Virus record (IMG/VR): IMGVR_UViG_3300036770_004428
Location: 1-64,000 of that record
From: a virus
Strand: one strand, 5' to 3'
DNA length: 64,000 nucleotides
How positions within the stretch are numbered: position 1 is the stretch's first letter; each line of letters starts with the position of its first letter. Made by a program: the position numbers and the translations under genes. The notes beneath the pieces were generated by a model. The model saw nothing but the letters and a program-made list of their open reading frames with translations. It had not been told where the DNA came from and searched no databases. This document shows positions 164 to 61,159 of the stretch, piece by piece.

Positions 164-509
164 TATTTTCGGGGTTTCTAATAGCTTTTATCCTCATCTT
201 AAAATCGGTATAGTCATTATACATACCACTGTGGTTAGAAAAATCAATAAAACCCTCATCTAATAAAATTTTTGCTAGTTTATTAGATAATAGTTGTTTA
301 ACATAATTGTGATATTCTTCACTATTATTTGATAATAAATTGTTTGATACTCTATCACTAACTATTACGTCTTCATAATTACGAAATGATTGTTCTATAA
401 TAAATTGCTGGTGGTTTTGTTCATGGACAAGCCTTAACCACTCATTTAAAAAATTTGTTGTAGAGACATCTTTTTCAACAAAACTATGTTTTAATTTATT
501 ACCTTCCAT
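153..509 (-). CDS. Hypothetical protein, 118 aa
   Basis: I do not recognise this protein. It is hydrophilic and rich in Asn, Ser, Glu and Lys, with no signal peptide, membrane segment or metal-binding motif that I can see. Its ATG overlaps the stop of the DruA-like gene by one base (TAATG), and its own end overlaps the P-loop NTPase gene by 11 bases, so the three look like one translational unit. The tight coupling supports it being a real gene; function is unknown. Confidence 0.6.
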   Translation of the reverse strand: MEGNKLKHSFVEKDVSTTNFLNEWLRLVHEQNHQQFIIEQSFRNYEDVIVSDRVSNNLLSNNSEEYHNYVKQLLSNKLAKILLDEGFIDFSNHSGMYNDYTDFKMRIKAIRNPENNVR

Positions 510-1648
510 TATCTAACCATATCAACCTCATTATTCTCTATTCTTTCAAGAGTATAGATTTCTAATTCATGTCTTAATTTATTTTCCTCTACCAATTTTT
601 CCCATCTTTTTTGAGCCTTACCTTTCCACCATTCGATCATATAAGAAAGATTGTGTTTGTGGTAATTTTGACCCTCAATTAAAGGAACTTGGCCTTCAGA
701 ATTAATATGCTCAACTACATTGTCAAAACCAAAATTAGAATAATAATATCTTTTTTTGGTTTTAGCTTTCATATGAGATTTAGTAAAATTATGAAACTCA
801 TTGTAAGCTTCCATATCATAATGTCTAAGGTGATTTTTAAGAATAGAAATAGCTTTATTAAACTCTCTCATTTTTGGTCCAGAAGGACCTGGGTCAACAG
901 TATTTCCGTTCCATTCAGGTTTACCGTAAAGTTCTCTCATTTTACGTCTAATTGGGTCGTATACTTCTTCCGTTGGGAAGAGAAACAAATCTGACTCTGT
1001 CATGTCTTGGTATCTAATAAAAGGTTTTAAACCGTCATACTGACTCATACCTTTAATATCACCGTAAAGGGAGGTTGTTTCAAAAAAACATGTATCAATC
1101 TTATCACCATATTTATCTTTCAACATGTTTCTAATTTCATGTGAACAAGCTATTAATGCTAATAATTTACCACCTAAATAATTATAACCAAATGGTTGTA
1201 CTGGAACAATGATAGCACCATTAATCATGTGTTTATTTACCGCTGTTGCTCTAACTGTTTGACCAAAATGGTCGTTTCTAGGTTTAATTGATAGTACGGG
1301 TGAAGCCATACGAACAAAACCAATATATTTATTTGTATTTTTTTCTTTAACACCTAACATAATTTGTCTACCAATTTGTGATTCCAATGGTAGTGATGTA
1401 ATAATTTGTGTTGCTGGATTAAATAAATTACCTTCAATAACCTCCAATTCAAAATCCATATCTTTTGGTTGGATATTATAATCAGTGAACATATCTTTTG
1501 TGTATTTATCTTGGTCTATCCCAATAATCTTTTCTTTTTTTCTTTCTAAGAAATAGTCTTGGATTGACTCCAGGTCCTTGTAAAAATTTATAAACCTTTC
1601 TTTAATATTAAGAGTCTCTTCTTTTGTTAATTTAATTTCTTCAGCCAT
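509..1648 (-). CDS. DruA-like DUF4338 domain protein
   Basis: The middle of this 379-aa protein, roughly residues 140-235, resembles DUF4338, the domain of the Druantia defence protein DruA: the stretch PFGYNYLGGKLLALIACS is followed by a basic helix, then KYGDKID, FFETTSLYG and SQYDGLKPF. The order G-G-K-L-L-A-L-x-x-x-S, Y-G, E-T-T-S and Y-D is the part I rely on. The C-terminal 100 residues are rich in Lys, Arg, Trp and Tyr, as in a nucleic-acid-binding tail. It is the first minus-strand gene after the divergent intergenic region, with two coupled genes downstream. Similar domains occur in T4-like marine phages. The biochemical role is not known, and similarity to a defence protein does not show a defence role here. 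Confidence 0.55.
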   Translation of the reverse strand: MAEEIKLTKEETLNIKERFINFYKDLESIQDYFLERKKEKIIGIDQDKYTKDMFTDYNIQPKDMDFELEVIEGNLFNPATQIITSLPLESQIGRQIMLGVKEKNTNKYIGFVRMASPVLSIKPRNDHFGQTVRATAVNKHMINGAIIVPVQPFGYNYLGGKLLALIACSHEIRNMLKDKYGDKIDTCFFETTSLYGDIKGMSQYDGLKPFIRYQDMTESDLFLFPTEEVYDPIRRKMRELYGKPEWNGNTVDPGPSGPKMREFNKAISILKNHLRHYDMEAYNEFHNFTKSHMKAKTKKRYYYSNFGFDNVVEHINSEGQVPLIEGQNYHKHNLSYMIEWWKGKAQKRWEKLVEENKLRHELEIYTLERIENNEVDMVR

Positions 1649-10113: not shown

Positions 10114-13100
10114 TTAATTTACAAAGAATTGTTTTCTTAATTTTTCTATTGCTGTTTTACCAGGGGTCAATCCAAAATAATAATAAGGTATGTTTTTACT
10201 ACCATTATGTGACACACCAGGGCCAGTCTCCATAATTTGTACGTCCTGTCCTGACCAAAGTAAAGGGGGTTGATTACAATTTACTCCCGTACTACCTCCA
10301 CAAGGACTAAACCTTTGAGCTATTAAATTATCAAAAAGGTAACCACTTATGATTGGCCCATCTTCGTCTTCATCACCACCAGCATCTACTGTACCAGGTG
10401 AGAATTGTTCTAAGTCTGTGTTTATATCTGTTTGTACTGTTACAATGTCAGTATAAATTTTTGAAACCTCTTTAACCCATTGATAAGCAAAATCTTCCAA
10501 TTCTTTTTCGTGGCAACCACTTCCACCTTTAAATAATTTACCAATCTTACAATTTTTAAGATTTAATAACCATCTGATTACATCTTCTGGGCTTTGGTAA
10601 CTAGTAGGCCCCATGTTTTGTGACCAAAAATTAGGATCCCATCCTTCTTCATAAAATGTTCCTGTAAAGAAACCTGGGTTTTGTTTATATAAATCAAAAA
10701 CAGAATTGTTAGCGTTTATGGCCTTTTCTATATCATTTAAAGTGTCTGGACACATTTCTACTCTACCTAAAGAAACTATTTTAGTTGAGTTGTAGGCGTT
10801 ACAATAAATGTTATCTTGTATATCTGTGGCTCCATTACCACAAGAATAGTTACCACATTGTCCATTTACTGTTGCGTTATGCCAATCTTTATGATAATCT
10901 TCTATGTTACTATAGTTTTTGTCTGAAGTTCCAGGTCCTTTAACTAAACATTTTCTACACTCATTGTTAGGGTCTTCGTCATGTGGACAACATTTATTTT
11001 TATGATAGTTATTACCACCCTTAGTATCAGAACCAGGTCCACAAAATTTCTCTTTTTTAACTAATTGTCCCTGTTTTTTTCTTATTTTAGCTTTGTACTT
11101 ATACTGGAACATGTATGCCGAACCAACCAACCAAGCGTCAAATAATGACCTTCTAATGACGTTCCTTTCTTCAGCTAATTCAAGTATTCTACAACATAAC
11201 CATTGTTGTATTAATTGTAATGCAGTACAGTTATCTTGTGATGCAACAAAACCATAAGCCTTTATACACACTGTATCATCATAACAAGCACTACCAGGGT
11301 CACTAGCATTACCAGGACAACCACAAACATCTTCAAAACAAACAAAGGATGTACAAGTACCAAATGAACCACCGTTACAATTTTGTCCACTATTACAAGA
11401 AAATGATCCAGCACAAGGTGGTCCACTTCCAGCACCACATAAATCACCACCTGAGTCCGTTCTAAGACAAAATATAGCATCATCACCACAAGAAAGAGTA
11501 AAACCTCTAGCATCGTTAGGACATGGTCCTGCTAAACCAGCACAATAATCTTCATCAGGTTCATCACAAAATCTACCTAGTATACCACCAATCCATCCAA
11601 AAGGTACGACTCTAATAACTCGATAAAATCTGGCCAAACAAATAGTGTTACCAAAAATTGTAAAACTTAAATTAAACCCTAGGTAAAACCCAAATTCTAA
11701 TGTTAAAAGAATAACAAAGAACTTAATAAAGGCAGCACCAATTTGTAAAAAGAAAGAACCTAGTGCGAATATAAAATCAGCCTTTCTAACTGCTGTATTA
11801 AAGGGTAATGGATTATTTGAAGCACCTTCTTTGTCGGTATTTTTTAGACCTAACCAACTCCACCTACTAGCACCTTTTTTATATTTTTTAATAAATTGTG
11901 AAATGGTGTATAATTGTTTCCACTCAAAAGTGTGAAAATCTTTATTTATATCTTTATAACTATAAACATTATCTGTAAATCTTTGGTCTTCGGTACCATT
12001 AATATCGTTAACATTACCAGTTGAGCTGTATCCACCAGTACCGCCGTGTTCTCTAGATAAACTAGGTATTATTAGGTTAGCCGTTCTTCTTTTAATGTTA
12101 GCGGGAGCTTCAGTAAAAGATAGTTTCATTCTATAAGCACCTTTTGTAGGTAAACCTATTTCAGGGTCTTGTGATGGCACTAAATTACCAAACTCATCTG
12201 TTACCACACGACCCACATTCATAGGGAGTGTTACAACAAAAGTCCCATCATCATCGATGACATCACCACCATTAATATCAAAGTATTCTAATTCTACTGG
12301 GACAACATCTTGTGTGTTAACCCATTGTACAGGGTCTATTTTTTTGGCTCTAATAAAATTAATTGTTCCAGCACCAGTTCTTAACTCATCTAATTCACCC
12401 ATTTTGTTTCTAGGGTTACATCTTTTATTTATAGAATTCTTTTCTTTATCTGAAAAAATAGAACCCATAAAAAGAGCTGTAGTCTCTAATTCAACGTTAG
12501 TATCGATATCTAATCTAGTTATACCTATTTCACAACTTTCAGGGTCACCCCAAAAAGGTATTACGTCTACAGATTGATTACTAGATTTTATCTGTGGTAA
12601 AGAGTCTAGGTTGGTTGAAACTTTAAATTTAGAATAACTTTCAAAGAAACCTTCTGGGGCACCTTGTGAAATTAAATCATATGGTCTAATACTTAATAAA
12701 CCAGCATCACTTAAATCAACGTCCATGTGAAGTATTCTTTGTCCTACAGGTACACCAAAAAGCATATAGTCACCAGAACTGTTAGTTTTTGTTGTGTATT
12801 TGTAGTATTTGTCAAATACTTCAATTACTATATCATTATTTAATAAAGTTTCTTTATCGGGAAAAGTACCTACAGGTTTATTCAATTCACAAGTGGTTCT
12901 ACTTAAAAGTAGATTATACCTTATATTGTTACTATCTTTATCCGTTACTGTTTTGTAAGGATATAGGTCTTTTATTAATTCATTATTTTCATCCTCACTT
13001 GTTATGGGTATGAAGATTGAAACTTTGGCGTTAGGTACACCAAAACCTTTGTTGGCCAAAACTCTACCAACGACTACACCATAATTAGAACATGGGTTAG

Positions 13101-13236
13101 TATAAACATCTTCTTGTGATATTTTTAAACTTAAAACTTCTAAAAAATCAAAATTCTGTTCTAATTTTAAATTTAAATGTTTGTCTGTACCACCAGGTGT
13201 TGTAGATAATCTAATAGATTTGCTTAATTCTGCCAT
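10114..13236 (-). CDS. Large baseplate or fibre protein with hydrophobic core and Cys-rich domain, 1040 aa
   Basis: No whole-length family was recognised. Residues about 48-175 look like a carboxypeptidase-regulatory or prealbumin-like beta-sandwich (VVVGRVLANKGFGVPNAKVS, later NSSGDYMLFGVPVGQ). Residues about 485-550 contain several strongly hydrophobic stretches (FFLQIGAAFIKFFVILL, FGFYLGFNLSF) and are followed by a domain at about 559-665 with more than 15 cysteines in a Gly- and Ser-rich background. A Lys-rich, Cys-containing region follows. It overlaps the upstream gene by one base (TAATG). A membrane-active or disulphide-stabilised tail component is possible but unproven. Confidence 0.5.
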   Translation of the reverse strand: MAELSKSIRLSTTPGGTDKHLNLKLEQNFDFLEVLSLKISQEDVYTNPCSNYGVVVGRVLANKGFGVPNAKVSIFIPITSEDENNELIKDLYPYKTVTDKDSNNIRYNLLLSRTTCELNKPVGTFPDKETLLNNDIVIEVFDKYYKYTTKTNSSGDYMLFGVPVGQRILHMDVDLSDAGLLSIRPYDLISQGAPEGFFESYSKFKVSTNLDSLPQIKSSNQSVDVIPFWGDPESCEIGITRLDIDTNVELETTALFMGSIFSDKEKNSINKRCNPRNKMGELDELRTGAGTINFIRAKKIDPVQWVNTQDVVPVELEYFDINGGDVIDDDGTFVVTLPMNVGRVVTDEFGNLVPSQDPEIGLPTKGAYRMKLSFTEAPANIKRRTANLIIPSLSREHGGTGGYSSTGNVNDINGTEDQRFTDNVYSYKDINKDFHTFEWKQLYTISQFIKKYKKGASRWSWLGLKNTDKEGASNNPLPFNTAVRKADFIFALGSFFLQIGAAFIKFFVILLTLEFGFYLGFNLSFTIFGNTICLARFYRVIRVVPFGWIGGILGRFCDEPDEDYCAGLAGPCPNDARGFTLSCGDDAIFCLRTDSGGDLCGAGSGPPCAGSFSCNSGQNCNGGSFGTCTSFVCFEDVCGCPGNASDPGSACYDDTVCIKAYGFVASQDNCTALQLIQQWLCCRILELAEERNVIRRSLFDAWLVGSAYMFQYKYKAKIRKKQGQLVKKEKFCGPGSDTKGGNNYHKNKCCPHDEDPNNECRKCLVKGPGTSDKNYSNIEDYHKDWHNATVNGQCGNYSCGNGATDIQDNIYCNAYNSTKIVSLGRVEMCPDTLNDIEKAINANNSVFDLYKQNPGFFTGTFYEEGWDPNFWSQNMGPTSYQSPEDVIRWLLNLKNCKIGKLFKGGSGCHEKELEDFAYQWVKEVSKIYTDIVTVQTDINTDLEQFSPGTVDAGGDEDEDGPIISGYLFDNLIAQRFSPCGGSTGVNCNQPPLLWSGQDVQIMETGPGVSHNGSKNIPYYYFGLTPGKTAIEKLRKQFFVN

Positions 13237-14786
13237 TAATAACCATATATTATTTTATCGTTCTTAGTATTAAAATAACCAATAACTTCTGAACTTGTTA
13301 TAATATCTTCATTCAAAATATTTTTATACGTTTGGTTAAAAATGACTCTAAATTTATAGTTTTTATTAACGTTTAGGTTGTAAACAATTTCGTTATACAC
13401 ACCACTATCGTTATTATAATCAATGACATTACTATAAAATAAACTAGTCCAATTAATATCGGATGTTTCTGTCACTTCTAACACAAACTCTCCAGTACAA
13501 TAATTTTGTTGTGAAAGTCTATCAACCTTCCAATTTATATTCACAAAATTTTTATCTAAAGTACCTAAGTCGTTTTGATTATTTAATATATCTTTAAAAT
13601 ACCAAAAAGAAAGTATATCACCGACTTTAATGGTTGTGAAATTAGGGTTAAAGATTATTTTATTAGGTGTACTCACACTTCTGTAATACTCAAGTCCTTC
13701 TGATAATGTAACCCCATTAATTACAACAACTATGTTGGAATTAGGGTCAAAATTATTAGTCAAGAATACTTCTTGTGTACCTTTTACAGTATTATTATTT
13801 ACAATATTGTTAGTGGAAGCACTAATATTTGTTGTAAATCCAGTCACCATAAAAGTATCTATTTCAAAAACATCATTTCTATTTATACCATAAGCTGTTA
13901 AAAAGGCTTGTGGACCAATTAAATATACTATAGTAATGACATCTTCTCTCTCTATATTACCACTTGTAATTGTAACAATAGGATAAGTACTAGGGTATTG
14001 TGAATTATCTAAATAATAGTCTAAGTTTTCTGTTAACCTAATTCCATTAACATATAAATTAATCTTATTACCTATCGGTTGGTTTGATAATTTTATAAAA
14101 TTTAAATAATTACTTCCTTGTATAGTTTCTTGAAATAAACTTATTTTGTCTATAGCTGTGTCAACATTTTTTACAATTGCTGGTGTCGGTGGGTTTTTAA
14201 CTGTAATGAAATACCAATCGTAATCGAAATTAAAATTATTTAATTGCGTAACACTAGACCAAGTATCAACTTCTTTTTTAACACATTCTTTAGGTGTAAA
14301 TTTATAATAACTCCTAAGCATATAGTCATTATTACTAAAGTTTAATTTACTTGCCGATAAAACCTCTGTAATTGTCGATGAGGTTATTCCACTAAAATCT
14401 TTACAAGCCGAATAAGCCGGACTTATAGTATTTAAAATTCTTGTAGGAGTTTTTACTGTAAAATATTCTCTATTATATATGTTATAACAAAACTGTCCTG
14501 TATAACCAGTATAATCAGTAGAACCAGTAAAAATGAAATTTAAATTAAAATCATCTACTTCAGATAAGTTATAAACAGCATAACAATTTGTGGGTGTACC
14601 TGAACAAGGTGATGTAGCACCTGTTATGGCTTTAGTGGCACCACTTAAATCATAGGTTGGTCCATTAAAGGGTTCTATACAAAAACTAGTTGTAGAATTT
14701 ACATTATAGATATTACTTAAACCAAAATCCCTATTCAATGGGTTTTCTAAGTATTTATCTTCTTTTATTTTACACAAAAAACCCAT
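13236..14786 (-). CDS. Virion-like protein with internal duplication, 516 aa
   Basis: No family was recognised overall. The central part holds two copies of a roughly 65-residue beta unit: LYVNGIRLTENLDYY followed by EREDVITIVYL, and VVINGVTLSEGLEYY followed by KVGDILSFWYF. This V-N-G-x-x-L-x-E-x-x-x-Y-Y pattern is common in phage fibre and baseplate proteins. The N-terminal region is Thr- and Tyr-rich with a few Cys. Both ends show TAATG coupling with neighbours. A fibre or baseplate extension protein is likely. Confidence 0.5.
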   Translation of the reverse strand: MGFLCKIKEDKYLENPLNRDFGLSNIYNVNSTTSFCIEPFNGPTYDLSGATKAITGATSPCSGTPTNCYAVYNLSEVDDFNLNFIFTGSTDYTGYTGQFCYNIYNREYFTVKTPTRILNTISPAYSACKDFSGITSSTITEVLSASKLNFSNNDYMLRSYYKFTPKECVKKEVDTWSSVTQLNNFNFDYDWYFITVKNPPTPAIVKNVDTAIDKISLFQETIQGSNYLNFIKLSNQPIGNKINLYVNGIRLTENLDYYLDNSQYPSTYPIVTITSGNIEREDVITIVYLIGPQAFLTAYGINRNDVFEIDTFMVTGFTTNISASTNNIVNNNTVKGTQEVFLTNNFDPNSNIVVVINGVTLSEGLEYYRSVSTPNKIIFNPNFTTIKVGDILSFWYFKDILNNQNDLGTLDKNFVNINWKVDRLSQQNYCTGEFVLEVTETSDINWTSLFYSNVIDYNNDSGVYNEIVYNLNVNKNYKFRVIFNQTYKNILNEDIITSSEVIGYFNTKNDKIIYGY

Positions 14787-15328
14787 TATTCAATAATTAT
14801 TTCTGCTGGTTGTAATTTATTTAAATAAATTTTCTTATTATTTAATTTTGTTAATGGGTCATCAATGATAGAAGGTTCTATTATTGTATTACCCGGTTCT
14901 TTTGCCGTAGGAATAATAGTCACGTTTGGTGTTGAAATAGGCCCTCCTGCTGTAGTCCCGTAGTCTAATGGTGTAAACTCATTGTTACTACCGTTATTGG
15001 GTCCATTATTAGGTTCATAATTAGTTGACTGATTAGAACTTAATGGTCCGTGATTAAATATATTAAAGTTTGGTATTGTAGTTACATCACCCTCAACAAA
15101 CTCAAAATCAAAATCACACTCCTCATATTCCGTACATATTAAGTCTGGTCTATTACACCACCTTTCCCCAGCGACAAATATTGTAGTTGCTGGTACAAAT
15201 TGTTCAACAAACTGCACCCAAAATCCTTGGAAAGTTTTCTTATAATTTTCTAATTGTAATAAGTCAACTTTTTTACCACATCTATTAAAGTCTGCCTTTA
15301 CAGTTACTATTTGGGTACTTCCGGTCAT
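14786..15328 (-). CDS. Virion-like protein, 180 aa
   Basis: I do not recognise this protein. The first half is globular with four to five Cys and an aromatic patch (FWVQFVEQFVPATTIF, then ERWCNRPDLIC); the second half is a low-complexity Asn-, Pro-, Thr- and Gly-rich stretch, then a short acidic-basic tail. The upstream 86-aa gene ends 8 bases before it. Part of the fibre cluster by position and composition. Confidence 0.5.
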   Translation of the reverse strand: MTGSTQIVTVKADFNRCGKKVDLLQLENYKKTFQGFWVQFVEQFVPATTIFVAGERWCNRPDLICTEYEECDFDFEFVEGDVTTIPNFNIFNHGPLSSNQSTNYEPNNGPNNGSNNEFTPLDYGTTAGGPISTPNVTIIPTAKEPGNTIIEPSIIDDPLTKLNNKKIYLNKLQPAEIIIE

Positions 15329-15807: not shown

Positions 15808-17328
15808 TTATATTATTATATTACCTTGTGTATCACCAGAATTAACAATTCCTTGTGTTATGTTAGAGTTAATCGCTGGGGAAGCACTTGTTCTTAAAAC
15901 TAAATTAGCGTATTTTACAGTTATTGGTGCTGTCGTATATAAACATTCAGCTGAATTTCTAACACTTAATGATCCACCCATTATAGAAATATTGTTATTA
16001 CCACTAACTTGGCAAGCATATCCACTAACACCTGAAATTCCTGATGAAGATTGTAAATTTTTAACAACCAATATACCTGTACCTGTAGCGGATAAAAAAG
16101 ACCCAATATCACTAATAGATTCGGCAACAACATTTTGTAATGAACTATAAACACCGTTAGTTGGTACTGTAGCTTGTAGTCCTATTGAACTATAGGAATA
16201 TCCTAAAATGTTTGATGCGAAAAGGACATTTTGTAACGACATACCTAAAGAAGAACTAGAATAACCCTTACAGTCTTCTATTAATGATGCTGAAGAACTT
16301 ATACCTATATTACCAGCACTATACCCAACACATGATTGCATTCTATTTAAATTTGAAGCGTAGATACCTGCTTGTGCCAAGGAATAACCTTTAGAATTTA
16401 TTAAAACACCACCCAAACTAGGCATTAACATACCAATACCAAATCCAGAACCTTCACTTCTACCAATACTATCATAAACTTCTGAAGTGGTTGTACTACA
16501 ATAGATACCTGTATCAATTGTGGCTATAGCATTGGTGGAATAAATTTTTCCACTATTAACTATACCTCTAGTGTATGCATTAACTATAGCACCCTTAATA
16601 ATACCAACATTGTTAATACCAGTAGTACTACTTGTTTTAAAATAAACACCACTAGTTTCAATAGATGAACTAGAGTTTTGTACATATAAACAAAGTGAAG
16701 ACGTGTCGTCCACATATGTAGAACCAGACCTACTAATAACACCGTTATAAATCTTACAATTAACTGCCACATTGTTATCATCTAGACAATTATCTGAAGA
16801 AGACTGACTTAATGTGTATGTATAACCATTCATATTTAAATTAACACCATCTTTTAAAATCACAGTTGTGGCTGAAGTTTCTGTCACATCAGCGAACATT
16901 TGTATTGTATCACCTGCTGTTGCCGCATTTATTGCACTTTGTAATGTAGAATAATAAGTGTATGAACCTGTACTATCAGAAATACCAAAAACACCAAAAG
17001 AAGATGTTGTTGTTGTGGCAGTAACTATGGTTCCGTTAGAATCTATACCTAAACTAAAAACAGATGTACCTGTACCAAAATTATTAATAGTTATATCAGG
17101 ACAACCATATAAATTACTAACATATAAATCATTTATACATGTAGCTAAAGTATTACCTGTAAAAGAACCCCCACCAGTACCACCAGTAAATAAAGGTGAT
17201 AATAAAGATAGTGGTGCTTTATATGAAGAACCCGCTGGATCTTGTGATAAATCATTTGTATTAACAACGTGTATAAAGGTTTGGTTTAATGTTACCCCAG
17301 TTGCCGTACTTCTTTGTGTTAATTTCAT
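15808..17328 (-). CDS. Tail fibre or spike with parallel beta-helix, 506 aa
   Basis: From about residue 130 the protein has the repetitive short-strand pattern of a right-handed parallel beta-helix: STLQSAINAATAGDTIQMFA and VILKDGVNLNMNGYT are followed by roughly 15 turns of about 20 residues (for example NVGIIKGAIVNA, GIYCSTTTSEVYDSIG, GIGMLMPSLGGVLINSKGYS). Pectin-lyase-like folds of this kind occur in phage tail spikes that bind or cleave surface glycans. No catalytic acid cluster can be pinned down by eye. The first 120 residues are a Gly- and Thr-rich attachment part. A late-promoter-like element lies 15 bp upstream. Confidence 0.65.
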   Translation of the reverse strand: MKLTQRSTATGVTLNQTFIHVVNTNDLSQDPAGSSYKAPLSLLSPLFTGGTGGGSFTGNTLATCINDLYVSNLYGCPDITINNFGTGTSVFSLGIDSNGTIVTATTTTSSFGVFGISDSTGSYTYYSTLQSAINAATAGDTIQMFADVTETSATTVILKDGVNLNMNGYTYTLSQSSSDNCLDDNNVAVNCKIYNGVISRSGSTYVDDTSSLCLYVQNSSSSIETSGVYFKTSSTTGINNVGIIKGAIVNAYTRGIVNSGKIYSTNAIATIDTGIYCSTTTSEVYDSIGRSEGSGFGIGMLMPSLGGVLINSKGYSLAQAGIYASNLNRMQSCVGYSAGNIGISSSASLIEDCKGYSSSSLGMSLQNVLFASNILGYSYSSIGLQATVPTNGVYSSLQNVVAESISDIGSFLSATGTGILVVKNLQSSSGISGVSGYACQVSGNNNISIMGGSLSVRNSAECLYTTAPITVKYANLVLRTSASPAINSNITQGIVNSGDTQGNIII

Positions 17329-17366: not shown

Positions 17367-19895
17367 TTAGAAATCCATAAAGTCATAAGACTCACCATCT
17401 TGGAACTCAAAATTTTGTCCGTCTTGGAATTGTTTACTAACCACATATTTGTAACAAATATCAGTTCCAGCACTTAATGTATAACCATTTGGACATGGTT
17501 TATATTCTAAACAACATTCACTGCACATATCAAAAGTCATGTACAATTCTTTACTGTTTAAAACTAAGTCACTATGTTTTTCTAATACAGAAGATTGATT
17601 GAAATAGTCTGTGTATCTCCATGGTAAACTAGCGTCAACACTAGGTGCAAATGTCCTATTTATAACACCATAACCTTCAATTAAACCAAACTCTCCTGCT
17701 TGAACAATTTTATTATCGATTAACTCTCCAGCTTGGTCTCTTCTTTGTGAATAATCTAATAAACCTGGATTATAAACCCAAGACTTTTTATTGTCTATCA
17801 CTGGTGCAATATCAAAACCAGGGCATTTATTTTTAATAACATCTGTTACAGTATTAGCACTTAAACACTCAAATTTTATATTATCTATGAATATATCATA
17901 AGTACAACAACAATTTAAACCTGAAGTAAATTGTAAAGCTACGTTATAACCTTCAGTTGTAGCTGTTGTAGCGGTTATAGTAGTAGTATCGAAAACAGTA
18001 CCTAAATCAAACCAAGTTTCTAATTCGTTAAACACTATAGAGTCAGAAGTTTGTAAAATATTGTTTTTACTATCTGTAATAACTAAACTAGCTTCTATAG
18101 GTGTCAATGGATTAAAACAACAAGGTTCCCTGTTTGAAATTAATTCGTCTAAATTTATGTCTAAATTATTTAATATAGGTGTTTTCGGTACTGTATGAGC
18201 TGAATTGTAATCAACTAAATTATTATCCCCATCAAAAGTTAATAAACAAGGTTCAGTCCCATTATCAACATCTATTACATCATCACCCTCATCAACAACT
18301 TCAACACAAGAATTTTCGGGTACACCAAAATAAAAAGAGGCCCCAACACTTAAAGGTACATCACATATGGGTTTGATCAATTCACTATTTAACTTGAATT
18401 TTAAAGGTAAACAAGGACTAGGGTCTCTAGTATAACAATTTAATTCTCCTTGATATTCTTTGTAAACCCAAGGTAAGTTATTTTCAGAAGCTATTTTTAA
18501 ACAACAGGTTTCATCAATAGATTCACCATTAAATGTAACATAAGTTACTGTTTGATTAAAGTTATCTGTAGTGGTAGTTGTTGTTAAATCTTGTAAAGAT
18601 AAATTACATTCACCTAATGGTTTACAGTAACATAAAACACCATCATAAAAACCACCTATCTCAAGACATTTTTGTACTGTTGTTTCTACAGGTATCGTTA
18701 TATTAGAATTTGTTAATGATATAGTACCAGAGGTAGAACCACCAATATTAAAACTTCTATAACAAACATAAAAACCACCTCTAATATACAAGGCATTAGA
18801 TACTAAGATTCTAGCATTTACGTTATCAGGTATACCATCACCACCAAAATCACTAGGATTAAATAAATTATCTATAACAAACTGAGATTCCTCACCTGTT
18901 AATCCCAATGACATTAGGGTAGACATGTTTAATAATAATTCTCTACCTTGTATTGATGCTGCTAAAGCAATAAATTCATCTACAGTTGTTAAACAAGAAC
19001 ATTTTACACTAATTTCGGGTGTTACATTACATAAACAAGCAGAAACTTCATCACCAAAATCATTTGTTACTACTTGGTAATTTGAATTTGGTAGTCTTGA
19101 GCAACATTCTTGTCCTACTATTGGTTCTCCATTTAGAGCGTCTACATAAAAACTTCCGTTAACAAATAAATCACCTTCACCGTTAGAGGTGATGATATCT
19201 ATTAAAAAGTTCCATAAATCATTATCAACATCTTGTAAAGAATCACCATTTATTGTTGTATAAAGATTATCCCACCATGCAAAATTGTTACAATCAATAC
19301 AAATTACTCTACTATTAAATTCAGCTTGTGATATTAATCCCAAAGAAAAACTTTCACATAAACTGTCTGCACCAGTATCACTATAGATATTACAATTAAC
19401 ACCATCCCAAAAGACGGGTTCACCAACAAATTCTTCTTTACAACATTCTTCTTTTAAAGCCGAATTAGAGGCTGTAACAATACCGTTACTAGATATATTA
19501 AACAATAAACTACTACAATAAGTGGTTACATTGTCAGTACCACTACCTGTGCCACCACCTGTGGGTATAACAACTATACCATCTTCTTTATCATCTGGTA
19601 AAACACCTATACCTGTACCACCACCAGTGGGTTGGCCATAGGTACAACATCCATTACAAGCTTGTACAGCGACTGGGTCATAATTATTAGCCTGTGGGTC
19701 CATACAACCTGTAAGATTACTTGCGGGATAATTACAACACCCACTAGTATATGTACCAAATAAATCTGGTGTCGGTTGTCCTACTGGTCCACAAGGTGTA
19801 TCGGCCAATGGGTTATAATTACTAGCCAATGGATCTATACAACCAATAATACCTCTTGGTCCACCTACCCCTGTTTGATTTACTCCTATCGCCAT
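17367..19895 (-). CDS. Cys-rich adhesin-like tail protein with NYNP motifs, 842 aa
   Basis: The N-terminus carries two copies of a motif typical of flavobacterial surface proteins: GCIDPLASNYNPLAD (residues 18-32) and GCMDPQANNYDPVAV (63-77). Further on are several modules of the form N-G-E-x-[IL]-x4-C-C followed by more cysteines (about residues 136-151, 253-264, 453-463), shared with the next gene upstream. A jelly-roll-like segment near residues 600-680 ends CCCTYDIFIDNIKF. The C-terminus has a short repeat, FQDGQNFEFQDGESYDF. There is no signal peptide. Probably a host-binding fibre stabilised by disulphides or bound metal. Confidence 0.55.
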   Translation of the reverse strand: MAIGVNQTGVGGPRGIIGCIDPLASNYNPLADTPCGPVGQPTPDLFGTYTSGCCNYPASNLTGCMDPQANNYDPVAVQACNGCCTYGQPTGGGTGIGVLPDDKEDGIVVIPTGGGTGSGTDNVTTYCSSLLFNISSNGIVTASNSALKEECCKEEFVGEPVFWDGVNCNIYSDTGADSLCESFSLGLISQAEFNSRVICIDCNNFAWWDNLYTTINGDSLQDVDNDLWNFLIDIITSNGEGDLFVNGSFYVDALNGEPIVGQECCSRLPNSNYQVVTNDFGDEVSACLCNVTPEISVKCSCLTTVDEFIALAASIQGRELLLNMSTLMSLGLTGEESQFVIDNLFNPSDFGGDGIPDNVNARILVSNALYIRGGFYVCYRSFNIGGSTSGTISLTNSNITIPVETTVQKCLEIGGFYDGVLCYCKPLGECNLSLQDLTTTTTTDNFNQTVTYVTFNGESIDETCCLKIASENNLPWVYKEYQGELNCYTRDPSPCLPLKFKLNSELIKPICDVPLSVGASFYFGVPENSCVEVVDEGDDVIDVDNGTEPCLLTFDGDNNLVDYNSAHTVPKTPILNNLDINLDELISNREPCCFNPLTPIEASLVITDSKNNILQTSDSIVFNELETWFDLGTVFDTTTITATTATTEGYNVALQFTSGLNCCCTYDIFIDNIKFECLSANTVTDVIKNKCPGFDIAPVIDNKKSWVYNPGLLDYSQRRDQAGELIDNKIVQAGEFGLIEGYGVINRTFAPSVDASLPWRYTDYFNQSSVLEKHSDLVLNSKELYMTFDMCSECCLEYKPCPNGYTLSAGTDICYKYVVSKQFQDGQNFEFQDGESYDFMDF

Positions 19896-19919
19896 TTATT
19901 TTTTTATATATTTTTTATT

Positions 19920-22900
19920 TTATGAAAAATAACAACCAATATCATTATTATAGTTTATACTTGAATTACCCGTTTGTTGTTTATAGTAGTTACAACAAGT
20001 ATTACTTAATTTAGTACCATCGTATTTCACAATTGTTGTATAATTAACACCTAAAACCACAGTATTTACTAATAAATAATTACCTTCGATTAATAATGGA
20101 CATTGGTAACATTTTTGGTTTAAATAATAAAAGTCACTGAATTCACAACAATATTTATCTAGTGCCTGTCCATTAGTGTTAAAGACATAATTACCGTTTA
20201 TTATGATATCATTATTGTTACACTTAATACATAAATTACTTACATTTTCACCATTAACTACTGTTTGGTAGTTAAATCCTAATTTATTACAACAGTCTTC
20301 TGTAATTAACCCACCTTCTAAATCTGTATAATAATTAATTGTGTTGTCATTAATTGTTACCGTATTTTCTTGATATTCTCTAGGACAATTAAAACAAGAA
20401 GATTCTGAACTACCTTGTGTTGTTGTCAATAAAGTCGTAACTAAATTAGTTGGACTCACATTATCAACAGTACCATCTAGATTATTTAATGTAATTATTG
20501 TCGGTCCGTAATTGTAGTTTAATTGTTCACAACAAACCTCATTTAATGGTGTAAAATTATCTACTGATGGTGTTTCATTTAAGTTATTAGGTATACCCAT
20601 CACATCATACAATTCGACCACTTGTTCAGCCGGACAAATGTTTTGTTCTGGCAACTTTTCACATATTTTATTTTCAGGATTCCAAACACCACCTCTAATA
20701 CTACAACAATCTTTGTTTTTCAATGGTTCACCATTAAACATGTAGATACATCTACCTGTTTGGAAATAAGTTCCATATAGATTATTTAAGAAATTTGTGG
20801 CCTGTACTAAATCATTACCATTATAACCATATGTTTGTGCTAAAGATATGGTTGTTTGGTCTGTTAGATTTAAACTATTTAAGTATTGTTCTGTGTTACA
20901 AGCAACAACCATAGAATCAATAGGTGGGCACCACCAACAATAGTAACCTTCATTATTACCTGCAGGTATATCCCCTCCATTTGGATTTAAAACGTCTGTA
21001 GTGTCACCATCACCTGTCGGTCCTGTATGTGGTACAAAGTCTAAACCAGTAAAATCAATATTAGGTAATGTCACACCATCTGTTGTAGTAACAGTATTTG
21101 TTTGTACAGATATAGAAGCGTAACCACTACCACAAGTATATTCCTTTAAACACAATTTAATAGGATAAGTACCTGGATTTAAAGTTATTGTTTGTACGGC
21201 TGTTTGATATTGGTCGGCATTTAACAAATAAGTTAAATTACCTAAGAATAACATTGCCTGATATTTACAACATGCAGCTGTTGCCCCACCAAATAACTGG
21301 AAAGTTACTGTCACAGTACTTCCTTGATTGACAGTTATTGAACCGTATGAACAATCTGTACAATTATTACTAAGACAAACAGGGTTTGTGATTATTGCAG
21401 GTAAACCAACAATACTATTTGTACAATCTACTTGTTGTGTTGGTGTTACTGTTGTATTAACCATATCTAAAACGTATGGTACTGTACTTGTTTGTGGGAC
21501 AAATAAATCTGATGAATCTAAAAAGTCAGTCGGATTTTGTGAAATCACATTATCTCCAGTTACCCCACCACCAACGACTGGTATGTATGAAGTTAATATA
21601 CAGTAACCACCTGTAGTATCTTCTACCCAAGTCACATCTTGTCCTACAATTGTTTTTGTACAACAATTTCTATCCGTAACTTCATTAACAATACCACTGT
21701 TATTTATTAAGATGGTTTGTGGACATTGTGTTACCGTATTGTTTGGTAACCAATAAAAATCACAACATTCTTCTATATTATGTGGTAATAATTCACCGTT
21801 AGATCCTGAAACATATATCATACCGTCATTAGCAAAAGAGGCTTCTGGTGGACAATTATTACAAAGTGTAGACTCTCCTGCTTGGAAAGTTATTCTAAGT
21901 GAATAAGTGTCACCGGTATCTCTTACATTTCTAGGACCATCATTATCACCATATTCGACTAAACCAGCAGATAATACTCTGATATTATCATTAGGGTCTA
22001 TTAAATATTCAGGTACTTGATCACCATAATTAGAAAATGCTTGTCCAAATTCACCAGGAGTGAAAGTACCATTATTATATTCTGTAAAATAATTTACAGG
22101 TATTTCTTCTAATCTTTCTACAAATGTTTCAGGTTCAAAATCTCTTAAGAAACATCTATACCTATCCCAATATCTTTGTCCAAAGTCATAAACACCATAG
22201 TGTGGGTTATTACCTTCAGTTCTTTCGTTGCCACCATTATACCAAAATCCGTCATTTTGAAACCAAAGGGTAAATGAATCTGTGGGTGTTTGTGGAAATC
22301 CTAAATCATCGGCAGCGAATTCAGATACGGAATAAAACTCAGGTAGATTAGTAGTCGGATTTATTATATTATAACCTATAGTACCGATGTCGGTAACAAT
22401 TTCAGCCTGTAGTAAATCTAAAATTTCTGTCATATCTACTTTATCTCTAGCGATATAGACTCTTTCATTTAAAGATGCTAAACATTCATCTATATTGAAT
22501 AGTTCAAGGAAAAATTCCAAAACTTTTCTTGTACCTTTAGACCTAAATAACCACCAAGCGTTTATTACCAATCTTCTCCATAATTCAATATCAATTTCAG
22601 CCGCAGAAAGTTCTCTAGAATAACCTTTAAATTGTGGGTTATCACCTTGTGAATTATCTTCAACAATATTAAACCCACCTAATGTCAACAAAACATCAAA
22701 ACCTAATGTTTTTGCCATCATTTTTATTAAATTGTCTGATGTATTATCCTTTTTGTTGTAGGTTACAACATTTGCAAAAGATAAACCATCTATATATTTT
22801 TTAATAACATCAAATTCGGCACCATAAACACGTAATAATTTAGATACTTTCCTACCAAATCTATCTGTACCATCACCATCGGTATCATATTCTTTTATGG

Positions 22901-23918
22901 AATCTGATACAAATCTTCTTAGAACTAAATCTGTTTTTGCTTCATCATATAAAGCAGCTAATTTAAATAAACCCTCTATATAGTTTTCGTAAGCAAAAGT
23001 GTTTATATCTAGGTTATAATTATCAGAAGTTGGCCATACAAAGGTTTGTAAAGAAAAACCTATATCACCATCTTCATATTTAATAGGTACATTAAATACT
23101 GCTTTGTAATTAGGTGTTTGTAATCTATCTAATAGAACGTTTTGAAAATCAGTTAGGTTATTAAAAAATTTGTCTCTTATTTCTTTTATCGGTTTTATGT
23201 GGTAATCAATTTTACCAAATGTTGACCCAGATAAACTCTTAAAACAATTACCCTTAACTGATACATAAATGTAATTATTAGTTGGTGTGTAACCTGTAAT
23301 ATCGTTTATAACATATTCTTCACTACCGTCATAATTAGTTAATACATAATTAAAAACATTGTTTAAAACATTTTCTGGTATAAAAAGGTTTTCACTTACA
23401 TCTAAATTAAATGGATTACTAGCCGCTATTATAGGACTTCTAAACGTAGTTGTATCAGTATCTAAATCATAACTATAATCTAGAACGGTATTCAAATTAC
23501 TTGGTCTCTCCAAGGTTGGTTGTGGTGGTGTCGAACAAATAAAAATAGAAGCTGGCCACTTTAAAATAATATCTTGTATCTCAGACTCAATAAATTTAGC
23601 AAAACTACCAAAGTAAACATACCTACTAACATCTTCTTTGTTAAAATTTAATTTAACAAAAACTTGATTAGACACCATAGTATCTAATTCGTCTACGGTA
23701 ATATTTAAATTATTTAATGAATAGTAGTCTGACCAATCACCTAATGTAAAATCTTTAAAAGGACTACCTTCAAAATTTGTTGTTATAGAAAAATTACCTA
23801 ATGTAAAAAAAGCGTCACTGTCAGTAAATTGATTTCCGACTAGACTTGGAGCAAAATCTCCCTCCCTTTTTTTATAAGCGTCCGTTAATGAACCTGGTAC
23901 AACTCTTTTTAAAGCCAT
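19920..23918 (-). CDS. Baseplate or tail protein fused to Cys-rich repeat adhesin, 1332 aa
   Basis: The N-terminal half (to about residue 560) looks like a tail attachment protein. It contains FGRKVSKLLRVYGAEFDVIK and the hallmark LWRRLVINAWWLFRSKGTRK seen in P2 gpI-like and related baseplate proteins that hold fibres. From about residue 690 the protein changes to Thr- and Asn-rich beta sequence with at least seven CC modules (CC near residues 718, 752, 1071, 1129, 1209, 1257, 1308), several preceded by N-G-E-x-L. The design suggests a baseplate anchor fused to a repetitive disulphide-rich host-binding arm. It belongs to the same block as the next four structural genes. Confidence 0.6.
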   Translation of the reverse strand: MALKRVVPGSLTDAYKKREGDFAPSLVGNQFTDSDAFFTLGNFSITTNFEGSPFKDFTLGDWSDYYSLNNLNITVDELDTMVSNQVFVKLNFNKEDVSRYVYFGSFAKFIESEIQDIILKWPASIFICSTPPQPTLERPSNLNTVLDYSYDLDTDTTTFRSPIIAASNPFNLDVSENLFIPENVLNNVFNYVLTNYDGSEEYVINDITGYTPTNNYIYVSVKGNCFKSLSGSTFGKIDYHIKPIKEIRDKFFNNLTDFQNVLLDRLQTPNYKAVFNVPIKYEDGDIGFSLQTFVWPTSDNYNLDINTFAYENYIEGLFKLAALYDEAKTDLVLRRFVSDSIKEYDTDGDGTDRFGRKVSKLLRVYGAEFDVIKKYIDGLSFANVVTYNKKDNTSDNLIKMMAKTLGFDVLLTLGGFNIVEDNSQGDNPQFKGYSRELSAAEIDIELWRRLVINAWWLFRSKGTRKVLEFFLELFNIDECLASLNERVYIARDKVDMTEILDLLQAEIVTDIGTIGYNIINPTTNLPEFYSVSEFAADDLGFPQTPTDSFTLWFQNDGFWYNGGNERTEGNNPHYGVYDFGQRYWDRYRCFLRDFEPETFVERLEEIPVNYFTEYNNGTFTPGEFGQAFSNYGDQVPEYLIDPNDNIRVLSAGLVEYGDNDGPRNVRDTGDTYSLRITFQAGESTLCNNCPPEASFANDGMIYVSGSNGELLPHNIEECCDFYWLPNNTVTQCPQTILINNSGIVNEVTDRNCCTKTIVGQDVTWVEDTTGGYCILTSYIPVVGGGVTGDNVISQNPTDFLDSSDLFVPQTSTVPYVLDMVNTTVTPTQQVDCTNSIVGLPAIITNPVCLSNNCTDCSYGSITVNQGSTVTVTFQLFGGATAACCKYQAMLFLGNLTYLLNADQYQTAVQTITLNPGTYPIKLCLKEYTCGSGYASISVQTNTVTTTDGVTLPNIDFTGLDFVPHTGPTGDGDTTDVLNPNGGDIPAGNNEGYYCWWCPPIDSMVVACNTEQYLNSLNLTDQTTISLAQTYGYNGNDLVQATNFLNNLYGTYFQTGRCIYMFNGEPLKNKDCCSIRGGVWNPENKICEKLPEQNICPAEQVVELYDVMGIPNNLNETPSVDNFTPLNEVCCEQLNYNYGPTIITLNNLDGTVDNVSPTNLVTTLLTTTQGSSESSCFNCPREYQENTVTINDNTINYYTDLEGGLITEDCCNKLGFNYQTVVNGENVSNLCIKCNNNDIIINGNYVFNTNGQALDKYCCEFSDFYYLNQKCYQCPLLIEGNYLLVNTVVLGVNYTTIVKYDGTKLSNTCCNYYKQQTGNSSINYNNDIGCYFS

Positions 23919-25308: not shown

Positions 25309-26160
25309 TTATATTTGTATACAATAAAAATACCACACAACATTATAGTCATCATTATTATTTGGATCCGATGTTGTTCTAATAATGTTAGGGAATGGTG
25401 GGTTATTTGAGTTACACAATATTGATTGTGCGTTATTATAGTTTACACTATAATTTCCACAATTAACTTGTCCTGTACAATCTGAAGAAACAAATAGTCT
25501 ATAAGTATTTTGTGGGCCAGGACAACACGTTTGTGTGGTCGTTGGGCAACCATTAGGTGTACAATTTGTTAAAATTGGGTATGCTCCACCACAACTTGGG
25601 TGTATTGCTCTACACCATTTATTAGCTAAATCTATTAAATAACTATCGCTAAGTGATCCAGGGTCTGATACGTCACCAGAACTTAATTTGAATAAACCAC
25701 CACCTAAATTTTGTGGTTGATCTACATTTGTGGTGTTGTCACTTGTCCCAAGGTTAATAGCACCATTATCACAAGAACCGTCATCGACTGTAGCATTTGG
25801 ATTATAATTTAAAGCGTTAGGGTCAGTACAACCATAAATAGTATAGTTACCATCACCATAATATAATGTATCACCACCATCATTATTACCATAAGGATTA
25901 CTCACCCCATCACTTATAGGGTTTTGTCCCCCATCATTAACCCCATTATTAGAGATATTCCAAAAATTACCTAAATCAATAATTTCAGCCTTTTCCTTAT
26001 AATCCGTGTAAACACCCAAGTCTTTAATGTTTTGTTTTAATATAAATGGTATAAATAAATCATCTGTGTTTACATATGTAACGGTGGTACCGGAATCGTT
26101 AGGGTCAAGTAAACCAACAATACCTAAATTAACTTTTATTTTTTTTAAGTATTTTTCCAT
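25309..26160 (-). CDS. Virion protein with flavobacterial NYNP-DDGSC motif, 283 aa
   Basis: The first 65 residues are a compact domain and the centre is Gly- and Asn-rich. At residues 110-130 lies a full copy of the motif GCTDPNALNYNPNATVDDGS followed by Cys, which is frequent in secreted flavobacterial and marine surface proteins and looks like a small calcium- or disulphide-stabilised repeat. The C-terminal 100 residues hold about ten Cys (for example CGGAYPILTNC and TQTCCPGPQNTY). The start overlaps the 254-aa gene by one base. A host-recognition accessory is plausible. Confidence 0.55.
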   Translation of the reverse strand: MEKYLKKIKVNLGIVGLLDPNDSGTTVTYVNTDDLFIPFILKQNIKDLGVYTDYKEKAEIIDLGNFWNISNNGVNDGGQNPISDGVSNPYGNNDGGDTLYYGDGNYTIYGCTDPNALNYNPNATVDDGSCDNGAINLGTSDNTTNVDQPQNLGGGLFKLSSGDVSDPGSLSDSYLIDLANKWCRAIHPSCGGAYPILTNCTPNGCPTTTQTCCPGPQNTYRLFVSSDCTGQVNCGNYSVNYNNAQSILCNSNNPPFPNIIRTTSDPNNNDDYNVVWYFYCIQI

Positions 26161-28763: not shown

Positions 28764-30587
28764 TTATTGTTTTACCCTAACTCTTATATCTGTTTCTGGG
28801 AACCTTACTTGGAACATGGAGTCATACTCAGCAAATAGTGCAAAGTCTTCTGTTAAATCAATTTCATTTGTTGTAAAATCAATAAATCCTTGGCTAGTAC
28901 TATTAAATGAGTATTGGCCACCAGTTTTATTATAGATTTTAAAATCAACTACGTTTAATACACCAGAGACATTATTAATGTTTTCAATTAATTGTGATAA
29001 ATAAATGTTATCACCCATATCCCATTTATTAACATTAAAATAATCTTTTACTGAGGATATTACACCAGAAATAACTTGTCCTTGTGGGAAAGCTTTATCT
29101 ATAAAAATATCTATATCAAAAGCTAAATCAAATACTTTACCATCTCTAATTAAAACATAATCGTTTATCATTCTATAATCAGCCAACCAAGAGGCCATAT
29201 TTTCTTTTAAAGTATTTGTAGACTGATTACTTAATTTACCGGCCGAATCTACACCTATTATGGCAATCTCTATTTTGTTTTGTCTTTCAGAAACATTATT
29301 TCTAAAAGGAATACCAAACTTACCTGGCATTTTATCTATAAGTACAACATAATCTTTCAGGGTCACAGCTCTATTTTGTGAAGAAAAATTATATCTAACC
29401 ATTTTTTTAATTTGTTCTGTACTAGGAGCATCACCACCACCAAAAGCAGGAACAGGGTTATTTACCCTTAAAGAATTTCTAACTCTTTGATTAATCTGTG
29501 GTGTTGGTCCTGTCACATTCATCTGTACTGTACCTAAAGAAGTTAATGAATTTGGTCCAACATTACCAGAAGCACCACCACCAGTTCTATATCTAATATA
29601 CATGGTTGTGTTTACTTTAGGTATTTCACCCATTGAGGTGGTGTTAATAAAGTCCCCCATTCTCAACATGAAATTGTTGTTAGCGTATTGTTGTAAATTA
29701 CTTTCATCAGCATTACCTGAACCAAAAGTTAGTTTACAAAAACCTAAATCAGTATACTCTTTTATAAAACGTCTACTAGTACTCACCCATTTACCAGGTA
29801 TCACACCTTTATTGTCAGAAGCTCTATTTTTATCCTCAAGAAAAATTTTGTTTTCCATCAAAGATTCTACCTCATACCACCTTAGATTAGGGTCTGAAAA
29901 TTGTGCTAATGTCGGATTACCTGTTAAATCATTACCCTCTAGGGTTACTACTTGTTCAATAGATAATACATTTTTATCAGGTATTAAAATTTCTAAAAAA
30001 GGTATTGCCTCTAAATTTGTTATTCTTTTTTTAAGAATATTAGTAGAACCAGCCACAACAAATTCACGTTTAACCAAGGTGTAACCAACTAAAGTACCGT
30101 TATTATTAAAACTAGGTAAAACTAATCTATTAGGTATACCACCACTACTAACTGGTTCACTAAAATCGATGTCATCCAGTGTCTCAAATGTTTGACCACC
30201 ACCAACAACTTGTGCCCCATATTTTAAAACAGGTGCGTATCTAATATCAAAAGTATCACCATACACAGGAACGTTAACAGAAAAATCAACGATAGATACA
30301 GATGGTCTCTTTCCAGGTACATTTAATCCTAATGTTCTAGCTATATTTAATATAGACCTTCTTTCTTGTGCGTGGTCTAGTTGGGTTTCTTGGAACATCC
30401 TATCGGTGTGGTAAGATAACATATCACCAACGGCCGCGTTCAATTCAACTAACATTGTACCAATTGAAGCATCATTAAAATCCGCGAATATATCTGGGTA
30501 ATATTTTTTAATGAAATTAAATAATTCTGTTCTTACATCTAAGAAGTTTCTAGCAAAATAATTTATTTTTCTGTCATTTGCTGCCAT
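28764..30587 (-). CDS. Baseplate wedge protein, gp6/BaseplateJ-like
   Basis: The N-terminal 120 residues match the gp6/BaseplateJ pattern: F-N-F-I-K-K-Y-Y-P-D-I-F, then FNDASIGTMLVELNAAVGDM, then YHTDRMFQETQLDHAQERRS and a GLNVPGKRPS segment. In T4, gp6 forms the inner ring of the baseplate wedge; 607 aa is close to the T4 length (660). The C-terminal part (FDLAFDIDIFIDKAFPQGQV, then INNVSGVLNVVDF) is the usual conserved BaseplateJ tail. It sits 4 bases after the gp25-like gene, the same order as in many contractile tails. Confidence 0.85.
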   Translation of the reverse strand: MAANDRKINYFARNFLDVRTELFNFIKKYYPDIFADFNDASIGTMLVELNAAVGDMLSYHTDRMFQETQLDHAQERRSILNIARTLGLNVPGKRPSVSIVDFSVNVPVYGDTFDIRYAPVLKYGAQVVGGGQTFETLDDIDFSEPVSSGGIPNRLVLPSFNNNGTLVGYTLVKREFVVAGSTNILKKRITNLEAIPFLEILIPDKNVLSIEQVVTLEGNDLTGNPTLAQFSDPNLRWYEVESLMENKIFLEDKNRASDNKGVIPGKWVSTSRRFIKEYTDLGFCKLTFGSGNADESNLQQYANNNFMLRMGDFINTTSMGEIPKVNTTMYIRYRTGGGASGNVGPNSLTSLGTVQMNVTGPTPQINQRVRNSLRVNNPVPAFGGGDAPSTEQIKKMVRYNFSSQNRAVTLKDYVVLIDKMPGKFGIPFRNNVSERQNKIEIAIIGVDSAGKLSNQSTNTLKENMASWLADYRMINDYVLIRDGKVFDLAFDIDIFIDKAFPQGQVISGVISSVKDYFNVNKWDMGDNIYLSQLIENINNVSGVLNVVDFKIYNKTGGQYSFNSTSQGFIDFTTNEIDLTEDFALFAEYDSMFQVRFPETDIRVRVKQ

Positions 30588-61128: not shown

Positions 61129-61159
61129 TTTGCCGTTGAATTAATAGTTACTATATTTG
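61129..61159 (+). promoter_or_regulatory. Bacteroidetes-type promoter (TTTG - 19 bp - TATATTTG)
   Basis: TTTG at 61129-61132 and TATATTTG at 61152-61159 are separated by 19 bp, as in the Bacteroidetes primary sigma consensus (TTTG or TTG at -33, TAnnTTTG at -7). The ATG of the plus-strand peptidase gene is 21 bp downstream. The remaining part of this 178-bp divergent region is A/T-rich with no other structure seen. Confidence 0.6.

Follow-up and report, generated by a model that had tools for sequence, protein, structure and literature searches.

Because folding takes place in a reducing cytoplasm, cysteine is normally scarce in phage tail proteins. The closest described system that departs from this is the contractile tail of Agrobacterium phage Milano, in which a large disulphide network was confirmed by cryo-electron microscopy and mass spectrometry; the structural proteins of Milano contain 2.1% Cys, scattered and forming many inter-subunit disulphides, sheath and tube included (PMC10811340). 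Here we describe a Cys-rich locus in a 64,000-nucleotide stretch of viral DNA (the window, positions 1-64000 of the 94,981-base IMG/VR virus record IMGVR_UViG_3300036770_004428). It consists of two adjacent minus-strand genes coding for a 1332-amino acid (aa) protein (19920..23918) and an 842-aa protein (17367..19895). A preliminary description had correctly located both open reading frames (ORFs) and had read them as adhesin-like proteins with an unnamed Cys-containing repeat, stabilised by disulphides or metal. The reading we prefer, with a probability of roughly 0.55, is that the repeat forms a detachable chain of disulphide-braced modules, a peripheral baseplate arm which carries jelly-roll, probably sugar-binding, domains.

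The 1332-aa and the 842-aa protein contain 43 (3.2%) and 45 (5.3%) Cys residues, respectively, against 1.2% for the ORFs of the whole contig, thus the baseplate enrichment known from Milano is seen here as well. The tube, gp6-like wedge and tape-measure-like genes have about 0-0.5% Cys, and the gp19-like tube protein, at 0%, lacks the enrichment seen in the Milano tube. Cys contents above 3% were found only in four genes of the region (encoding 283, 842, 1332 and 1040 aa) and in one distant ORF. CC dipeptides occur 8 and 9 times in the two proteins as compared to 1.35 and 2.3 in shuffled sequences (0/5000 as high), and His is nearly absent (4 and 2 residues).

The repeating module starts with a CxxC pair and a beta-hairpin, continues with (N/D)GxxL(S/T)ExCC, where the CC stands at the start of a short helix, and ends, after a Gly, with a second beta-hairpin closing in C or CxxC. 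A unit is about 45-85 residues long and has four Cys, the loops between CxxC and CC are about 23-40 residues, and in tandem units the closing CxxC of one serves as the opening CxxC of the next. Judged by profiles there are ten units, seven in the 1332-aa protein (CC at residues 718, 752, 1071, 1129, 1209, 1257 and 1308) and three in the 842-aa protein (151, 264 and 464). The preliminary description was thus right about the repeat and, if units are counted by profile, about there being at least ten; its literal motif, [ND]Gx-x-[LI]...CC, occurs only six times across both proteins, and the spacing between CC and the next Cys is 12-45 residues rather than the 20-40 it had given. The literal motif exceeds shuffles with fixed Cys in the 1332-aa protein (0/3000) and is marginal in the 842-aa protein alone (174/3000), where we dropped the literal-motif reading and preferred the profile tests.

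Two profile tests were used. In the held-out test the last three units of four orthologous 1332-aa proteins served to build a hidden Markov model (HMM), which was then applied to the remainder of those four proteins and to the 842-aa proteins, each with 100 shuffles in which all Cys were fixed in place. The best held-out match was better than all 100 Cys-preserving shuffles in seven of the eight proteins; the exception was the 1332-aa protein ortholog of L006 (8.7 vs. 10.1). The flank test considered only the residues beside CC, with the CC columns omitted, and was trained on 264 CC sites of viruses outside the close clade. The flank profile ranked the ten unit CC sites higher than at least 99.6% of other positions, and the remaining six of the sixteen CC sites were rejected; because orthologous positions are part of the training set, the result reflects conservation in addition to internal similarity. 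The consensus of 314 non-redundant CC sites is N-G-x-x-L-S/T-E/Q-x-C-C-x-x-Y/L-G-G/F-x-Y/W. In most copies of the module, AlphaFold2 (AF2) models of both proteins show a short helix flanked by two beta-hairpins, with the CC at the beginning of the helix (secondary-structure positions taken by hand from the DSSP strings of the models).

All units lie on the minus strand. Module 1 of the 1332-aa protein (residues 686-732, 21723..21863; CNNC...EECC) gave a profile match of 11.4 bits against a shuffle maximum of 8.8, and its four cysteines (C686, C689, C718 and C719) are invariant across 12 sequences. Module 2 (residues 733-773, 21600..21722; DRNCC...C), recognized by its flank score, is degenerate, and in L001 the first C of its CC is missing. 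Module 3 (residues 994-1086, 20661..20939; CWWCPP...KNKDCC...C) has a helical insert and was assigned from conservation, the AF2 model and the flank score, whereas module 4 (residues 1095-1178, 20385..20636; LNEVCC...CFNC) was a held-out profile match. The last three units, module 5 (residues 1175-1233, 20220..20396; CFNC...TEDCC...CIKC), module 6 (residues 1230-1273, 20100..20231; CIKC...DKYCC...CYQC) and module 7 (residues 1270-1329, 19932..20111; CYQC...SNTCC...C), were assigned by the profile tests, as were the 842-aa protein units at CC151 (residues 129-168, 19392..19511) and CC264 (residues 247-301, 18993..19157; LNGEPIVGQECC). The third unit of that protein, at CC464 (residues 430-487, 18435..18608; FNGESIDETCC), had a held-out score of 13.9 bits as compared to a shuffle maximum of 8.7.

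The claim that no named domain has this pattern stood: no Pfam, PHROG or PDB match covers the module. Profile searches of the two proteins against these three collections yielded no credible match, fold searches with the module in PDB and BFVD nothing convincing, and tblastn with both proteins and with the array alone found nothing among 50,697 phage records at E values up to 10. In the open-access literature we found no papers on such a repeat.

The Cys residues are much better conserved than their surroundings. Among four full-length orthologs of the 1332-aa protein (about 50% identity) 19 of the 21 Cys past residue 1000 (90%) are invariant, as are 41 of 44 (93%) among three orthologs of the 842-aa protein, also about 50% identical. 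For I, K, L, N, Q, S, T and V the invariance in the array region is only 0-20%, with I, K, T, V and Q never invariant. In a wider set of 12 diverged sequences nearly all invariant array columns are Cys, and most CC and CxxC are kept, which supports the preliminary description on this point. Purely compositional matches or a lack of conserved Cys would have refuted the preliminary description, and neither was the outcome. The marginal count of literal motifs in the 842-aa protein would agree with a Cys-rich, Asn/Thr-rich sequence lacking a defined module; the held-out and the cross-virus flank profiles, the invariant Cys and a collinear stand-alone homologue (in L036, see below) largely refute this explanation, which we consider very improbable.

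Where Cys residues are lost, they tend to be lost in twos: 1007 with 1057 (module 3; L006/L014) and 35 with 53, while 424, 495 and 662 are lost together in two sister sequences. As judged from the alignments, paired loss suits disulphide pairs. The main rival reading is that CxxC and CC bind a metal (zinc or iron-sulphur), the array being a zinc-knuckle-like string that folds in the reducing cytoplasm without disulphides. CxxC pairs are, as is generally known, typical of zinc knuckles, the four Cys of a unit would suit one tetrahedral site, and tail proteins do fold in the cytoplasm before lysis. However, CC at a helix start is generally regarded as an unusual ligand pair, and the scarcity of His, the tendency of Cys to disappear in twos, the variable spacing between CC and the next Cys and the lack of matches to zinc-ribbon families all speak against a metal site. 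No known zinc-binding profile matched the two proteins, and among their relatives there was a single marginal Mcm10 zinc-motif match (E=0.07). We regard metal binding as unlikely, though it is the strongest of the competing explanations. The joint loss of Cys pairs, the few His residues and the Milano precedent would together favour disulphides. The remark that cytoplasmic folding makes such a repeat unusual has lost weight, since many verified disulphides are present in the Milano tail and baseplate; the redox objection is not fatal, because a contractile tail is known to carry a large disulphide network (PMC10811340).

The connection with the baseplate comes from gene order and from the relatives of the 1332-aa protein. 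Both Cys-rich genes lie downstream of, and on the same strand as, a gp6-like baseplate wedge gene (28764..30587, minus strand), identified by its match to PHROG 219 (E=4.5e-20) and by its isolate relatives, which ties the locus to the baseplate. The first approximately 660 residues of the 1332-aa protein (21939..23918, minus strand) make up a conserved core with very few Cys, which has relatives in 186 IMG/VR viral contigs, and orthologs in IMG/VR share the gene order. In a search confined to the gp6-adjacent regions of three phages, to which the E values refer, the core HMM matched Microcystis phage Mel-JY01 (E=1e-9), the uncultured 484-kb LR756508 (E=9e-5) and, weakly, Flavobacterium phage immuto (E=0.004). 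In all three the matched protein is encoded by a large gene two or three genes after the gp6-like wedge, and has 3-9 Cys but neither CC nor a module array. As these relatives have the core without the module, the array is an addition to a standard baseplate-region protein. From such sequence comparisons the 1332-aa protein is identified as a conserved contractile-tail baseplate core protein with a C-terminal array, not the plain adhesin proposed before; the other elements of the earlier interpretation, a real unnamed module, a tandem, arm-like layout and an adjoining jelly roll of the sugar-binding kind, found support. The core profile (A3) had no sequence match in PDB up to E=1, hence we do not use the label T4 gp7.

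The window also encodes a ribonucleotide reductase, a DnaB-like helicase, a UvsX-like recombinase, a primase and a single-strand binding protein. This set of genes, together with the gp6-like wedge and a weak match to a gp19-like tube protein, indicates that the source virus is a contractile-tail phage. Some contigs bearing core relatives are 318-363 kb long and one with a relative of the 842-aa family is 380 kb, thus the record may belong to a larger genome. Searches with two profiles found no relatives in bacterial or archaeal genomes, and therefore gave no clue to the host; a scan of the window for Bacteroidota-type promoters gave one match, which is below chance expectation.

The array is gained, lost and split between related phages. 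In 37 of 39 distinct intact loci a Cys-rich ORF (at least 3%) is found within the next three genes after the core gene, i.e. the 842-aa protein gene represents a near-obligate neighbour, and the number of Cys in the C-terminal part of the core protein ranges from 0 to 40 among the 39 loci. On the core tree, the presence of four or more fused CC changes a minimum of three times. In locus L036 (9001-12282) the core protein stops before any module and the array is encoded by the next, separate ORF of 397 aa, which has its own ATG 33 bases after the core gene and is collinear with residues 994-1332 (E=7e-16; E=4e-46 to L016). The L036 core and array genes are a natural fission or fusion pair. L032 shows a partial split; L044 may be another split, although its overlapping ORFs could also reflect a sequencing frameshift. 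A core relative in L080 (9001-12939), possibly a module-free member, is 1313 aa long and has 12 Cys and no CC; the available contig end shows no strongly Cys-rich gene beside it.

The near-obligate vicinity of the Cys-rich genes could also be explained by an inter-chain disulphide lock, in which the 1332-aa protein, the 842-aa protein and their baseplate neighbours would be cross-bonded and would keep the baseplate shut until a reducing trigger, as proposed for Milano, whose baseplate wedges and short fibres are cross-linked in this manner (PMC10811340). Here, however, the Cys residues stand in repeated, regularly ordered units, unlike the scattered Cys of Milano, the tube and gp6-like proteins are nearly free of Cys, and the array length varies freely, which would be odd for a precise lock. 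We find the lock less probable than metal binding.

Between modules 2 and 3 of the 1332-aa protein, at about residues 855-942 (21093..21356, minus strand), the AF2 model contains a domain for which Foldseek retrieved CBM35, CBM6 and CBM36 structures from PDB (E=5.7e-4, probability 1.0, template modelling (TM) score 0.46 of the target). With a local predicted local distance difference test (pLDDT) score of about 50-70, the assignment of a CBM35/CBM6-like jelly-roll fold is provisional; such a domain would probably bind sugar.

The 842-aa protein also has parts outside the module, all on the minus strand. Its N-terminal pair of GC[IM]DPxAxNYxP...CC motifs (residues 18-86, 19638..19844), seen in the sequence and conserved in A2 and A5, is distinct from the module. 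A 283-aa protein encoded nearby (25309-26160, minus strand) has a motif of the same type, GCTDPNALNYNPNATVDDGSC, and ORFs of matching size in related loci carry 16-20 Cys. A second beta-sandwich (residues 592-680, 17856..18122), apparent in the AF2 secondary structure, bears CC and CCC and is nevertheless not a module, as its flanks fail to match; its Foldseek results were not significant. The most conserved region, with few Cys, is C-terminal (residues 690-820, 17436..17828), and is not folded by AF2 alone (pLDDT about 30). Among the fold matches, the PDB hits of the 842-aa model (birnavirus VP2, root-mean-square deviation about 25 Å, TM about 0.1) were dismissed as beta-sandwich noise, and long, low-TM matches to collagen-like proteins in the viral fold library were discarded. 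The 842-aa family is modular as well: a C-terminal domain fused to it in L006, L049 and others occurs in the window as a standalone 180-aa ORF (QFVEQFVPATTIFVAGERWCN; 14786..15328, minus strand). The 842-aa gene and the 180-aa ORF, which form one protein in L006, are separated in the window by the gene of a 506-aa protein (15808-17328, minus strand) that looks by eye like a parallel beta-helix spike.

Returning to the disulphide-braced arm, its assembly can be envisaged as follows. The CC of each unit would bond to the flanking CxxC pairs, and the chain would thus be braced by disulphides, not by a large hydrophobic core. Both proteins would be present in the virion, where a stiff, protease-resistant arm may project from the baseplate rim, carry the jelly-roll, probably glycan-binding, domain and dock the fibre and spike proteins encoded next. 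The disulphides would form in late assembly or after lysis. It must be noted that several points weigh against this picture. The AF2 models have moderate confidence (for the 1332-aa protein about 80 over residues 995-1332 and 65 on average, for the 842-aa protein 60 on average), and the alignments behind the analysis are shallow. Cys pairs were lost jointly in only a few events, and the match that identifies the jelly roll is modest (E=6e-4, TM about 0.46 of the target). A search of the 95-kb contig, possibly an incomplete one, revealed no member of the thioredoxin family.

Other genes of the window are mentioned for completeness. The 1040-aa protein (10114-13236, minus strand) has 36 Cys, and in it a hydrophobic stretch precedes a segment densely packed with Cys, whose pattern differs from the CC module; size-matched Cys-rich ORFs occupy its place in L006, L026 and L014. 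A 2623-aa protein (41799-49670, minus strand) carries a phage tail lysozyme (PF18013) and a VanY D-Ala-D-Ala carboxypeptidase domain (PF02557) at its C-terminal end. A 379-aa ORF (509-1648, minus strand) has a DruA domain (Pfam PF14236, E=3e-15), here in a phage genome; the domain is named after the Druantia defence system. Among the very few plus-strand genes is a peptidase-like one (61180-62220; PHROG 4191, weak M42), ahead of which a TTTG-N19-TAnnTTTG sequence stands at 61129-61159; this pattern is not enriched in the window.

The results describe a whole repeat family on conserved CC/CxxC, tied to baseplate genes and varying in length between related phages, and add a domain family absent from Pfam and PHROGs. 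The locus is probably where receptor binding is encoded in a widespread group that lacks close cultured members in the phage collection searched, and it may serve to test how phages assemble rigid, oxidised arms for receptor binding. We would go somewhat further only tentatively, and propose that the module might represent a new extracellular-type disulphide repeat fold of a large uncultured clade of contractile-tail phages, used as a length-tunable, exchangeable baseplate arm, either fused or as a separate subunit.

It is useful to compare the module with known Cys-rich folds. An inhibitor cystine knot (knottin), as generally described, would share the C-C-CC-C-C order only if both flanking CxxC are counted, but the loops of the module are much longer (about 23-40) and its outer CxxC are shared between units; no match in fold (PDB and BFVD) or in sequence was found. 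EGF/cEGF and TB (8-Cys) domains are also small, disulphide-rich and tandem, and differ in Cys spacing. Weak cEGF matches were seen in two relatives of the 842-aa protein (best E=2e-4), while the window proteins had no EGF/cEGF or TB match, and properdin came up in the PDB search no better than chance (E=1.2). The likeness to CBM35/CBM6 concerns the inserted jelly roll only, not the repeat, with 12-22% identity. Mel-JY01, immuto and LR756508 share the homologous core region and the gene order but not the module array. Milano likewise has a contractile tail and structural proteins enriched in Cys, among them baseplate wedge and receptor-binding proteins; here, in contrast, the 3.2-5.3% Cys is limited to a few peripheral baseplate genes and is arranged in a tandem module. 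As a kind, the disulphide-rich receptor-binding baseplate has its precedent in Milano, whereas the module and the detachable array appear to be new.

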